From: Dehalococcoidia bacterium
Lineage (GTDB): Bacteria; Chloroflexota; Dehalococcoidia; Lucifugimonadales; UBA3495
Assembly: GCA_022825745.1 (NCBI GenBank)
Contig: JAJDWF010000090.1
Span: 1 to 42,096, forward strand
Length of the DNA stretch: 42,096 nt
Reading direction: 5' to 3'
Under the pieces are notes generated by a model. The model had not been told where the DNA came from and did no database searches. It was given only the letters and a program-made list of their open reading frames with translations. Below are positions 22,432-32,818 of the stretch, in pieces (the first letter of the stretch is position 1; every line of letters begins with the position of its first letter). The position numbers and the translations under genes were made by a program.

Positions 22432-23094
22432 ATGACCACCGCCCACCAGCCGCCCGCCCACAGCCATCCTGACGACCCCAACCCGGTGCACGTCATCGTC
22501 TGGTATGACTATATTTGACCATGGTGCTACGTCGGCCTGGAACGCGTCGACAAACTTGCGGACGAGTACGACATCACCGTCGAGGGCCGGGCCTACCTCC
22601 TGCGCCCCGATACCCCCGTGGAGGGCCGCGTGCGGGAACCCCGTCCCGGCGAATCCGACGACGAGCTTTCCGACCCGCTGCGCACCCAGGCGCGGGAAGC
22701 CAACATCGTTATGCGCCCGCCCCGATACACCCCGAACAGCCTGAACTCCCTGCAGGCGACCGAGTACGCCCAGGAGCAGGGCAAGTTCCTCGAATACCAC
22801 CACGCCGCCTACGAAGCCTATTGGGACCGCCGGGAAAACCTGGGCGACCCCTCCGTGCTGGCCGACATCGGGAGCAACGTCGGGCTGGATGGTGCAGAGT
22901 TGAAGGAACGGGTCGAATCCGGCCATTACGCTCAGCGGGTGGTGGACCAGTACCACGAAGCTCTGGGCTACGGCATCCGTGGCATCCCCACGTTCGTGTT
23001 CGACAACCTTCTCTTCACGGGTGCCCAGCCCTACGAGGTTTTCCAGCGCGTGATGGACAAAGCCTTGGAGAACCGGGCCGCTGATCAGGGTTGA
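22432..23094 (+). CDS. Predicted selenoprotein: DsbA/FrnE-family oxidoreductase with UPWC active site (TGA at 22516)
   Basis: Reading from the ATG at 22432 (GAGGTG five bases upstream) the frame gives VHVIVWYDYI, then TGA at 22516-22518, then PWCYVGLERVD and stays open to a TGA stop at 23092: 220 residues if the TGA is read through. FrnE/DsbA-like proteins have DxxCPWCY at this place, so codon 29 is the nucleophilic Cys and would be selenocysteine (Sec29, resolving Cys32). The rest is intact: PxNxLxxLxAxxYA-like helix region, YHHAAYEAYW, and the cis-Pro loop GIRGIPTFVF (Pro186), ending FTGAQPYEVFQ. No signal peptide is seen, so it is probably cytosolic, a thiol-disulfide oxidoreductase or isomerase. 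A hairpin follows the TGA. Ordinary callers would start at a GTG at 22618. A Cys-to-stop nonsense mutation is the alternative, but the rest shows no decay. Confidence 0.85.
22516..22551 (+). promoter_or_regulatory. Candidate bacterial SECIS element, DsbA/FrnE-like gene
   Basis: After the TGA at 22516-22518, GUCGGC (22531-22536) pairs with GUCGAC (22546-22551), six pairs with one G-U. The loop CUGGAACGC can be closed further by C22537-G22544 with a bulged C, leaving UGGAAC, with G in its second position. The loop starts 18-19 bases after the TGA; in E. coli fdhF it starts about 17 bases after. This fits the bacterial SelB-binding hairpin by form; binding is inferred. Confidence 0.6.
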
Positions 23095-25520: not shown

Positions 25521-28364
25521 ATGCCCGACGACATCACCATCTCAATCGACGGGGTGGAAATCCGCACGCAGCCCGGCAAAATGGTGCTGGAAGCGGCCAT
25601 CGATGCCGGCGTGTACGTTCCCTATCTGTGCTATCACTCGGGTATGAAGCCCTACGCGGCCTGCCGCATGTGCGTGGTGGTCGCGGAAAATGAGCGAGGC
25701 CGGATACCGGGCTTCCCGGCCGCCTGTACCCTGGCCGCCACCGACGGCATGACCGTCTGGAGCGAAACTCCCGACGTGAACGAACTGCGCCGCTCCGTCA
25801 TGCAGATGCTCATTGCCGAGCATCCCAACGGCTGCCTCACCTGCCACCGCGTGGAAATCTGCGGCCCCTCCGACGTGTGCCTCCGCCACGTCTCCGTCAA
25901 TGACCGCTGCGTGACCTGCCCCAAGAACGAGCGCTGCGAATTCAAGGACACGGTCCGGTACCTGGGGATGGAACTGGAATCCCCGATGACCTACATGTAC
26001 CGCGACATCCCCCTGGAAGTCAGCGATCCGTTCTATGATCGCGACTACAACCTCTGCATCACCTGTGGCCGGTGCGTCCGGGTGTGCGAGGAGGTTCGCG
26101 GCGACAGCGCCATCTGCTTCACCGAACGCTCCGGCAATGCCCTGGTGGGCACCTCTTTCGGCACCTCACTCCTGGAATCCGGCTGTGAGTTCTGCGGAGC
26201 CTGCCTCGACGTTTGCCCGGTGGGCGCCCTCACGGAACGGGAGAACAAGTGGGAAAAGGCTGCCACCGTGCAGCGGACGATCTGCACCCACTGCCCGGTG
26301 GGCTGCCAGATGAACCTGGAAATCAACGAGCAGGGCCGCGTGATCCGCGCCATCCCTGAATACAACGCCCCCGCCAACCGTGGGCAGGCCTGCTACAAAG
26401 GCAAGTTCGGCCTGGGCCATCTCACCAACGGGCAACGATTGCGCCGCCCGCTGGTCCGGCGGAACGGGATCCTTGAATCGGCCACCTGGGACGAAGCCCT
26501 CGACCTGATCGCCGAACGCCTGCGGCCCCATCAGTCAGGCAACGGATTCGGCCTGGTGACCGCCGCCGACAGCACCAACGAAGAGTTCTACCTGGCCCAG
26601 AAGTTCGCCCACCTCGGGATGAACACCCACAACCTGGACCACTCCGGCAACGTCCAGCCCGACTTGACCAGAGGCTTGGAGGACGTGTTTGGCTATCCCG
26701 GAGCGACCAACTCCATCTGGGACCTCAAGAACTCGGACTGCATCCTGGTTTTCAACACAAATCTCACCGAGAGCCACAACGTCGTCGGGGTTCCCATCAA
26801 GCAGGCCGCGCGAGAGGGCGCTTCGCTCATCGTGATCGATACGCGGGAAGTGGAACTGACCCGGTATGCCAACCTTTGGCTCCGTCCCGTGCCCGGCGCG
26901 GAATTGCTCCTCATCGGCGCGATACTCAAGACCGTGCTGGATGAAGGCTTGATTGATGCCGAGTGGATGGCGGAAAACGTGGACGACCACGACACTCTGC
27001 TCTACGAACTGGAACGCATCGACGAGGTCGCCATCGCCTCCACCGGCGTCCCCTACGACGATATTGCCCAGGCTGCCCGGCTTTATGCCAACGCCGCCAA
27101 TTCGGGCATTGTGTACGGACTGGACAACGTGCCTTCGGCCATCACCCGCGACTGCGTCGTAGCCCTGTGCGATCTGGCCCTGCTCACCCACAACGTTGGC
27201 AAGCCGGCCGGCGGCCTCTTCCCGATGCGGCAGGGCGCGAACACGCAGGGCGCTACCGACATCGGCTGCATTCCCAATCGCCTGCCCGGTGGCGGCCCGC
27301 TGTTCGATGATGAAAACCGCGCCCGCGTGGAAGCGGTTTGGGAAGCTACCCTTCCGCCGCCGCAGCACAGCATGGGCGTCGCCGAAATGCTTGAAGCGGC
27401 CGCGTCGGGCGACATCCAGTCCATGATTGTCGTCGGCGACAGCCCGAATTTCACCAACGGCCTGCTCGGCGACGGACTGGCGGCGCTGGAAAAGCTGGAC
27501 TTTCTGGCGGTGATGGACACGTTCCTCACTCCGGCGGCCCAGATCGCGGACGTCGTGCTTCCCAGGGTAACCTTCGCCGAGAAAGACGGCACGTTCACCA
27601 ACCTGGAACGTCGCATCCAGCGCATCCGACCGGCCGTGTCCGTGAAGAACAACGATTCCAGGCCCGAAGGCTGGGTGTTTGAGCAACTGGCCGAGCGCCT
27701 GGGCATCACCGGTATCAGTTACGCCGACCCGTCGGCGCTGATGGACGAGATCGCTTCCGTAACCCGGAACTACGGCGGCGTCAGCTACGACCGACTGGCC
27801 CGGGAATCTGCCCTGGTGATGCAAACCGGCGTCGAATCGCCCCGTCCCACCCAGATTCTCTACACGTCCCGGGAAGAGCGTGGCATCCAGTGGCCGTGCC
27901 CGGATGCCGACCGCCCATCCTCGCCGGTGCTCTACGCCGATGGTTTCCCCAACGGCAAAGCGGAGCCGGGAGCGCCCCGCTTCCGGGCGGTGGACTGGCC
28001 GACCGACCCCGAATTTCCCGCGCTGCTGGCGCCGGGCCGGGTCCTGCTGCAACGCGAGCGAGATACCGTCATCGAACCCGGAGACCTCAACCGTATCGTG
28101 CGCGACGAAGAGGTGCGGCTCAATCCGGATGATGCCGCTGCATGGAACATCGCGGACGGAGCGCCGGTCAGCGTTGTAACCGCCGTCAGTCGGATTACCG
28201 GCGTCGCCGGAATCGACGCGCTGGTGCCGGCCAGCGTCGTCGCCATCACCACCCTGTTCGGGGAACTGGCCGTGGAGTTGCAGGTGTCCGAGGACGTCAA
28301 TCCCATGGCGCGCGTGCCGGGCTTGCTGGTCGAACCGTGCCGGGTGGAACCGCTGGATCGGTAA
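25521..28364 (+). CDS. FdhA/NuoG-like iron-sulfur molybdopterin-type subunit lacking the Sec/Cys ligand
   Basis: 947 residues, AGGAG five bases upstream of the ATG. Domains in order: [2Fe-2S] ferredoxin (Cys37, 48, 51, 69); His101-x3-Cys105-x2-Cys108-x5-Cys114 cluster site; a second C-x2-C-x5-C (130, 133, 139); two 4Fe-4S ferredoxin motifs (179-189 and 222-232); the 4Fe-4S motif with CTHCPVGC (255-262); molybdopterin oxidoreductase domain; C-terminal dinucleotide-binding domain (~835-947). It aligns along its length with NAD-linked formate dehydrogenase alpha subunits, but the active-site segment reads HNLDHSGNVQPD: Gln379 and Pro380 stand where formate dehydrogenases have Sec or Cys and His, and the preceding Arg is Asn. 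Automatic annotation as formate dehydrogenase is therefore doubtful; a role as electron-relay or with another substrate is more likely. Confidence 0.85.
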   Translation: MPDDITISIDGVEIRTQPGKMVLEAAIDAGVYVPYLCYHSGMKPYAACRMCVVVAENERGRIPGFPAACTLAATDGMTVWSETPDVNELRRSVMQMLIAEHPNGCLTCHRVEICGPSDVCLRHVSVNDRCVTCPKNERCEFKDTVRYLGMELESPMTYMYRDIPLEVSDPFYDRDYNLCITCGRCVRVCEEVRGDSAICFTERSGNALVGTSFGTSLLESGCEFCGACLDVCPVGALTERENKWEKAATVQRTICTHCPVGCQMNLEINEQGRVIRAIPEYNAPANRGQACYKGKFGLGHLTNGQRLRRPLVRRNGILESATWDEALDLIAERLRPHQSGNGFGLVTAADSTNEEFYLAQKFAHLGMNTHNLDHSGNVQPDLTRGLEDVFGYPGATNSIWDLKNSDCILVFNTNLTESHNVVGVPIKQAAREGASLIVIDTREVELTRYANLWLRPVPGAELLLIGAILKTVLDEGLIDAEWMAENVDDHDTLLYELERIDEVAIASTGVPYDDIAQAARLYANAANSGIVYGLDNVPSAITRDCVVALCDLALLTHNVGKPAGGLFPMRQGANTQGATDIGCIPNRLPGGGPLFDDENRARVEAVWEATLPPPQHSMGVAEMLEAAASGDIQSMIVVGDSPNFTNGLLGDGLAALEKLDFLAVMDTFLTPAAQIADVVLPRVTFAEKDGTFTNLERRIQRIRPAVSVKNNDSRPEGWVFEQLAERLGITGISYADPSALMDEIASVTRNYGGVSYDRLARESALVMQTGVESPRPTQILYTSREERGIQWPCPDADRPSSPVLYADGFPNGKAEPGAPRFRAVDWPTDPEFPALLAPGRVLLQRERDTVIEPGDLNRIVRDEEVRLNPDDAAAWNIADGAPVSVVTAVSRITGVAGIDALVPASVVAITTLFGELAVELQVSEDVNPMARVPGLLVEPCRVEPLDR

Positions 28365-31951: not shown

Positions 31952-31974
31952 TCTGATCGCGGGGAGACGATAAG

Positions 31975-32337
31975 ATGAGCGATACGGCAACAATGTATTG
32001 GTGGCCACGTTGAAGCAGCTGCCGCAAGGTGCGGGAGTTGCTCGTACAAAACGGTCTGACCGTAACCGAAAGAGACTATTTCAAAGAACCGTTCACGGAA
32101 CAGGAGCTCAATGACCTGGTTGCCGAGGTGGGGGAACCGGGCGTAAGCGCCATGTTCGCCAGCCGCAGCCCGTCGCTGAAGAAGATGGGCCTCAACGCGG
32201 CGGAACTCTCCGACGAGCGTAAGCTGGCGTTGATGCTCGAAGAACCCCGGCTGGTGCGCCGCCCCATCGTCCGGCTGGGAGACCGGCTCCTGATCGGGGC
32301 CAGCGTCAAGGTGATTACCGAAGCCCTCAGCGACTGA
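31975..32337 (+). CDS. Predicted selenoprotein: ArsC/Spx-family thioredoxin-fold protein with USSC motif (TGA at 32011)
   Basis: From the ATG at 31975, with GGGGAG eight to nine bases upstream, the frame reads MSDTATMYWWPR, TGA at 32011-32013, then SSCRKVRELLVQNGLTV and on to a TGA stop at 32335: 120 residues with the TGA read through. The ArsC/Spx/YffB family has its redox Cys exactly there (PxCSxCRK), so codon 13 is predicted to be selenocysteine with Cys16 as partner (UxxC). The family features follow: RDYFKEPFTEQEL, SPSLKKMGLNAAELSDE, and RRP at 95-97. The substrate is unknown; true arsenate reduction, Spx-like regulation or general thiol redox are possible. A long hairpin begins right after the TGA. 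Ordinary callers start at 32029 and lose the active site. Confidence 0.87.
32011..32042 (+). promoter_or_regulatory. Candidate bacterial SECIS element, ArsC/Spx-like gene
   Basis: Directly 3' of the TGA, AGCAGCU (32014-32020) pairs with AGUUGCU (32036-32042), then a G-G mismatch, then CCGC (32022-32025) pairs with GCGG (32031-32034), leaving the apical loop AAGGU. Eleven pairs, one of them G-U. The loop carries GGU, like the E. coli fdhF element, but starts 12 bases after the TGA, about five closer than in fdhF. Pairing is seen directly; SelB binding is inferred. Confidence 0.65.
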
Positions 32338-32380: not shown

Positions 32381-32818
32381 ATGAAAATCTTTTTTGACGT
32401 TGACTACACCATACTGGGACTGGACGATACCCTCCGTCCTGGCACCACGGACACATTCCAGAAACTGCTGGACGACGGGCACGAAATCTACATCTGGTCC
32501 GGGATGGGTGAACGATGGGAAGTCATCGAAAAGCACGAGTTGCAGAGGTTCGTCAGCGGGGTGTACGAGAAGCCGACCCACCACTTCCATGAACGGCTTG
32601 AGGAACTGAAAATACCCTTCGAGCCGGAATTTGTCATCGACGACTATCCGGAGATTGTCGCCGCATTCGGAGGCGTCTGGGTGCCGCCCTATTTCTTTTC
32701 CCGCAGTGTTGACCACGAGATGGACCGGATTTATCGGATCATCTGCGACTTTGCGGAAACCGGGGATTCCGAGGACCGTCAATACCGGGCCAAAGGCACC
32801 AAAGTCCCCCTGTTCTAG
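32381..32818 (+). CDS. Small HAD-like protein of unknown function
   Basis: 145 residues. Motif I is FFDVDYTIL with Asp6, Asp8 and Thr10 (DxDxT); IYIWSGMGERWEV resembles motif II, and FVIDDYPEIVAAFGGVWVPPYF looks like the C-terminal acidic motif. There is no cap domain, so a HAD phosphatase-like fold acting on a protein or macromolecule is conceivable, but no specific function can be named. It lies between the ArsC/Spx-like gene and mutL, three bases before the mutL start, so it is probably cotranscribed. Confidence 0.75.
   Translation: MKIFFDVDYTILGLDDTLRPGTTDTFQKLLDDGHEIYIWSGMGERWEVIEKHELQRFVSGVYEKPTHHFHERLEELKIPFEPEFVIDDYPEIVAAFGGVWVPPYFFSRSVDHEMDRIYRIICDFAETGDSEDRQYRAKGTKVPLF

Follow-up and report, generated by a model that had tools for sequence, protein, structure and literature searches.

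The arsC-like gene at positions 31975–32337 of the forward strand of the window, the 42,096-nucleotide stretch of Dehalococcoidia DNA that we analysed, very probably encodes a selenoprotein that has selenocysteine (Sec) as residue 13 and acts, most likely, in selenol-disulfide exchange. Decoding of the in-frame TGA at 32011–32013 as Sec is strongly supported by comparison of sequences. The gene starts with an ATG at 31975, located 8 nt downstream of the ribosome-binding site GGGGAG (31961–31966, forward strand), and its terminal stop at 32335–32337 is TGA as well. The TGA at 32011 is the sole internal stop of the frame and coincides with the nucleophilic Cys that opens a CxxC motif. The read-through product of 120 residues begins with MSDTATMYWWPRUSSCRKVRELL, in which the codon of the resolving Cys16 of the UxxC motif occupies positions 32020–32022 (forward strand). 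The elements on which the original prediction was built, namely the GGGGAG, the ATG, the lone internal TGA, the Cys16 partner, and the downstream RDYFKEP and RRP stretches, are all in place.

The proposed ArsC/Spx-like character of the protein is borne out by both sequence and predicted structure. The read-through product matches the Pfam family ArsC (PF03960) with 63.3 bits (gathering score 24, E 2.7e-17). The AlphaFold2 model, with a mean pLDDT of 92, positions residue 13 just ahead of the first helix (residues 14–25). The best Foldseek match was Spx (3gfk, E 4.5e-10, TM about 0.8), followed by ArsC and YffB, and sequence searches resulted in the same ranking. The fold is thus predicted to be that of ArsC/Spx, closest to Spx. 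The positions invariant in an alignment of 37 members include residue 13 (U or C), C16, R33, P91, R96, and P97.

The genome from which the window originates (assembly of 2.99 Mb in 149 contigs, 92% complete) contains selA (553 bits, cut-off 268), selB (369.5 bits, cut-off 242), selD (378 bits), and a tRNA-Sec (66.4 bits), which ARAGORN identified as tRNA-SeC with the anticodon tca. The tRNA-Sec gene is located on another contig, and ARAGORN detected no tRNA in the window. The finding of these four genes agrees with the earlier claim that the host decodes UGA as Sec, against which a genome devoid of sel genes would have spoken. The selD gene (L102, G000:C57:11153-12076) itself contains one in-frame TGA, making it the third predicted selenoprotein gene of the genome.

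The search for relatives covered 99 related genomes, including that of the window, 77 of which contain the arsC-like gene. Codon 13 is TGA in 74 of these 77 genomes and TGC in the remaining three (L050 in G080, L051 in G090, and L052 in G091). Near relatives thus carry TGA at the same codon, and not Cys throughout, as would be expected if the original prediction were wrong. In a wider sample of 400 genomes of the phylum, 53 had a match, and most of the better ones contained exactly one TGA. A scan of contigs with the single protein as the query identified only 11 loci, mostly from close relatives; the named ones belong to SAR202 and Dehalococcoidia metagenome-assembled genomes, including SAR202 bin87. 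Under the standard code, the TGA closes the frame and could be a nonsense mutation or an assembly error at 32011 in a decaying gene, but it recurs in independently assembled genomes and is conserved across genera and families. Furthermore, most differences between close relatives 3′ of the TGA are synonymous, and dN is well below dS; for example, the window gene and that of L022 differ by 29 synonymous and 7 nonsynonymous changes (dS 0.49, dN 0.03). The pattern of substitutions indicates that strong purifying selection acts downstream of the TGA, and decay or misassembly of the gene is extremely improbable. The original prediction held that two independent genes with a TGA at a catalytic Cys were very unlikely to occur by chance. 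The conservation of the codon in 74 of 77 genomes is indeed far beyond chance; the two genes cannot be counted as independent, because both belong to one Sec-decoding genome.

It may also be considered that translation starts downstream of the TGA, at GTG 32029, from which an open reading frame of 102 residues extends, and that the TGA is the true stop of an unrelated leader. The 36 nt upstream of the TGA are too short for firm substitution rates, but the codons preceding the TGA encode a Y-W-W-P-R stretch that is conserved among the relatives and without which the first strand of the ArsC fold would be incomplete. A product starting at GTG 32029 would be devoid of the entire redox motif. The GTG is replaced by GTA, GCG, or GCA in most relatives and is therefore not kept as a start, which leaves this reading with very little probability. 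A UGA in frame would likewise be expected if the organism read UGA generally as another amino acid, as in a Trp or Gly code. The sole tRNA with a UCA anticodon that was found has the architecture of tRNA-Sec, though, and position 13 is Cys wherever the codon is not TGA. The Sec genes of the order terminate with TAG in 29 cases, TGA in 26 (the window gene and those of 25 relatives), and TAA in 19; UGA thus functions as Sec codon and as stop. A general reassignment of UGA is accordingly about as implausible as a decaying gene. Error, a pseudogene, an internal start, and code reassignment are all effectively excluded.

Replacement of Sec by Cys is associated with the absence of Sec machinery. Among the genomes that are at least 90% complete and contain the gene, SelB scored above the cut-off in 45 of 45 TGA carriers and in neither of two Cys carriers (Fisher p 9e-4, a statistic that ignores the kinship of the genomes). 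The genomes G080 and G091 yielded no match within the range of true tRNA-Sec genes. The third Cys carrier, G090, keeps both SelB and tRNA-Sec, which implies that Sec is dispensable in the arsC-like gene. The G090 gene has lost the hairpin described below together with Sec, even though the gene of a congener (L062 in G050) retains Sec. Outside the order, TGY occupies the Sec column in L136, L141, and L146. In a protein tree calculated from 118 columns, in which many forks are weak, the six Cys forms are scattered and require five changes, at least four of which are forced by well-supported branches. The protein of G090 groups with a congeneric Sec form and that of G091 with the Sec form found in the same family. 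The natural reading of these sequence relationships is that the Cys forms arose by Sec-to-Cys replacement.

The TGA is followed by a conserved, covarying SECIS-like hairpin, GUGCGGG-AGUUG-CUCGUAC, at positions 32029–32047 of the forward strand (nt 16–34 after the TGA), which consists of a 7-bp stem and a 5-nt loop; an example from a relative is GUAAGAG-AGUUG-CUCUUAC. All seven pairs are formed in 64 of the 70 distinct Sec genes of the order and at least six in 68. When codons were redrawn synonymously from the remainder of the same genes in 1000 draws, seven pairs were formed in a mean of 0.5 genes (maximum 5) and at least six pairs in a mean of 5.6 (maximum 13). When codons were shuffled, column by column, between genes that share the amino acid at that position, 430 ± 4 pairs were expected, compared with 478 of 490 observed. 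Both null models ignore relatedness, and the margins are very wide. Two-sided changes occur at four of the seven pairs (U-A/C-G, A-U/G-C, A-U/C-G, and G-C/A-U). Reading of the sequences of the two worst genes, L054 and L057, indicates that the stem is possible with one bulged base. Glu at codon +8 is encoded by GAG in 56 of 56 cases, compared with 59% elsewhere, and Leu at codon +10 by CUC or CUU in 70 of 70, compared with 27% elsewhere; codon choice at these positions therefore follows the hairpin. The apical loop contains GU, with GT at loop positions 24–25 in most of the 70 genes. Judged from sequence, the element looks as expected for a bacterial SECIS: the hairpin follows the UGA closely, and its apical loop contains a conserved G.

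The Cys forms of the order lack the hairpin and form only two to three of the seven pairs; the Cys forms from outside the order form four to five. Among the Sec genes from outside the order, at least six pairs are formed in this register in 13 of 23, and the other 10 are without the exact register, so different hairpins may be used in those lineages. For the window sequence, the minimum-energy prediction is a longer alternative hairpin at positions 32014–32042 of the forward strand (nt 1–29 after the TGA), with −20 kcal/mol (z −3.6) versus −8.7 kcal/mol for the conserved one. The longer hairpin competes within the genus and is absent outside it. A scan of the window against Rfam at the gathering score detected no RNA family.

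Based on the conserved sequence features and the predicted fold, a mechanism can be proposed. The short hairpin about 15 nt downstream of the UGA at 32011, with GU in its apical loop, would recruit SelB loaded with Sec-tRNA(Sec), and the ribosome would read the UGA as selenocysteine. The same codon at 32335, presumably not followed by such a hairpin, would terminate translation and release a selenoprotein of 120 residues that has the ArsC/Spx/YffB fold and is probably located in the cytosol. Sec13, at the N-terminal end of the first helix, may provide the attacking selenolate, and Cys16 may resolve the resulting selenenylsulfide. This pairing of residues, together with the UxxC motif and the fold, makes a glutaredoxin- or YffB-like selenol-disulfide oxidoreductase the most likely function.

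Two other functions, both compatible with Sec decoding, have to be weighed against an oxidoreductase. The protein could be a true arsenate reductase with catalytic Sec, since it belongs to the ArsC family (PF03960), has Sec at the position of the catalytic Cys, and contains an RRP motif that is invariant or nearly so, with R96 invariant in the 37-member alignment. Nevertheless, its score against the arsenate reductase model TIGR00014 is 56.7 bits, below the cut-off of 106.05, and the Arg triad 60, 94, and 106/107 needed by E. coli ArsC (PMC3169414) is not clearly present in full. The conserved neighbours also argue against arsenate reduction, which we regard as unlikely: the succession mutS, arsC-like gene, small HAD-like gene, mutL is conserved across the family. 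Of the 35 loci examined in the family outside the genus, 33 include mutS, 34 the HAD-like gene, and 31 mutL, all in the same orientation. The alternative that the protein is not an enzyme but a Spx-type regulator, in which a Sec13–Cys16 redox switch controls the interaction with RNA polymerase alpha, is slightly less probable still. In both sequence and fold, Spx is the nearest family, and its CxxC is in the same position; yet the window protein scores below the cut-offs of the Spx models TIGR01617 (69.5 versus 75.05 bits) and NF002459 (61.1 versus 123 bits). The distant relatives L131, L142, and L127 exceed the TIGR01617 cut-off. Activation by Spx through alpha-CTD strictly depends on its residue G52 (PMC2801614), but the corresponding position, Gly56 in the window protein, is Gly within the genus and Ser, Pro, or another residue in many relatives. 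The position of Spx R60 is variable as well. We consider it improbable that SAR202-type Chloroflexota employ the protein as a Spx switch that binds RNA polymerase alpha and senses oxidants through a Sec–Cys selenenylsulfide. A selenol-disulfide oxidoreductase thus remains the preferred reading.

The small HAD-like protein encoded between the arsC-like gene and mutL (32381–32818, forward strand) contains an FDVDYT motif, recognised by eye, and was without a Pfam match. Its identity within the family is mostly 77–88%, considerably higher than that of the adjoining MutS and MutL.

The window contains another predicted selenoprotein gene, encoding a DsbA-like protein (22432–23094, forward strand), with an in-frame TGA at 22516–22518 in the motif UPWC (YDYIUPWC). 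The TGA is kept in most full-length matches of the relatives, which upholds the earlier prediction of a selenoprotein. No unusually stable fold follows the TGA of the window copy (z +0.64), and a hairpin is present after the TGA in some relatives. A NuoG/FdhA-like protein (25521–28364, forward strand) is encoded next to NuoE- and NuoF-like genes. Its HSGNVQP stretch, compared by eye with FdhF, presumably lies at the Sec/Cys site of formate dehydrogenases, and the protein may therefore be without the metal ligand.

The results indicate that Sec is decoded throughout much of an order of SAR202-type Chloroflexota, of which many live in association with sponges, and that one small redox selenoprotein is retained widely in the order; dozens of related bacteria from sponges and the ocean have this TGA and the hairpin that follows it. 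A gene caller that treats every TGA as a stop would cut the gene or begin it after the TGA. The strict constraint on codons delineates a well-resolved, lineage-specific SECIS that could be used for searching these genomes. At least four Sec/Cys exchanges, together with one Cys genome that keeps the machinery, constitute a compact natural experiment on the retention and loss of Sec.

ArsC-like and DsbA-like selenoproteins with UxxC motifs have been known since 2005–2008, and both UxxS and UxxC motifs of ArsC are included in reviews from 2022 and 2026 (PMC9312934, PMC13188914). The window gene adds to the known UxxC ArsC-like selenoproteins. In the literature that we searched, no paper dealt with selenoproteins of SAR202; a sponge metagenome study that lists SAR202 bin87 reported the co-occurrence of SelA and SelB in most symbiont bins (PMC5649159). 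As far as the searched literature shows, the host lineage, the order-wide retention, the codon-level evidence for the SECIS, and the repeated Sec/Cys switches are new, as is the observation that the NCBI model NF041106 misses this branch. The model, ArsC_rel_Se_1, describes an "ArsC family (seleno)protein" that is likewise ArsC-related with UxxC (PMC9312934, PMC13188914), but the window protein scores 31.7 bits, below its cut-off of 85. All 37 aligned relatives match the model (best E 3.2e-13), and the six scanned singly reached no more than 20–43 bits. Spx/MgsR (TIGR01617; PDB 3gfk and 1z3e) is the closest known system in sequence and fold and has its CxxC in the same place; it differs by Cys instead of Sec, a length of about 131 residues, and the alpha-CTD contact Gly, which is not kept throughout the family of the window protein. 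The ArsC-like selenoproteins reported in 2005 from the Sargasso Sea are also ArsC-family proteins with Sec in the redox motif, but their UxxS motif is without a resolving Cys (PMC1088965). The "Arsenate reductase 2" selenoproteins of the 2008 GOS study (cd03032, 42 Sec sequences), compared here by their description, share with the window protein the ArsC family, the UxxC motif, and an origin in marine bacteria, whereas they were derived from metagenome reads, in a text that names neither Chloroflexi nor SAR202 (PMC2398784).
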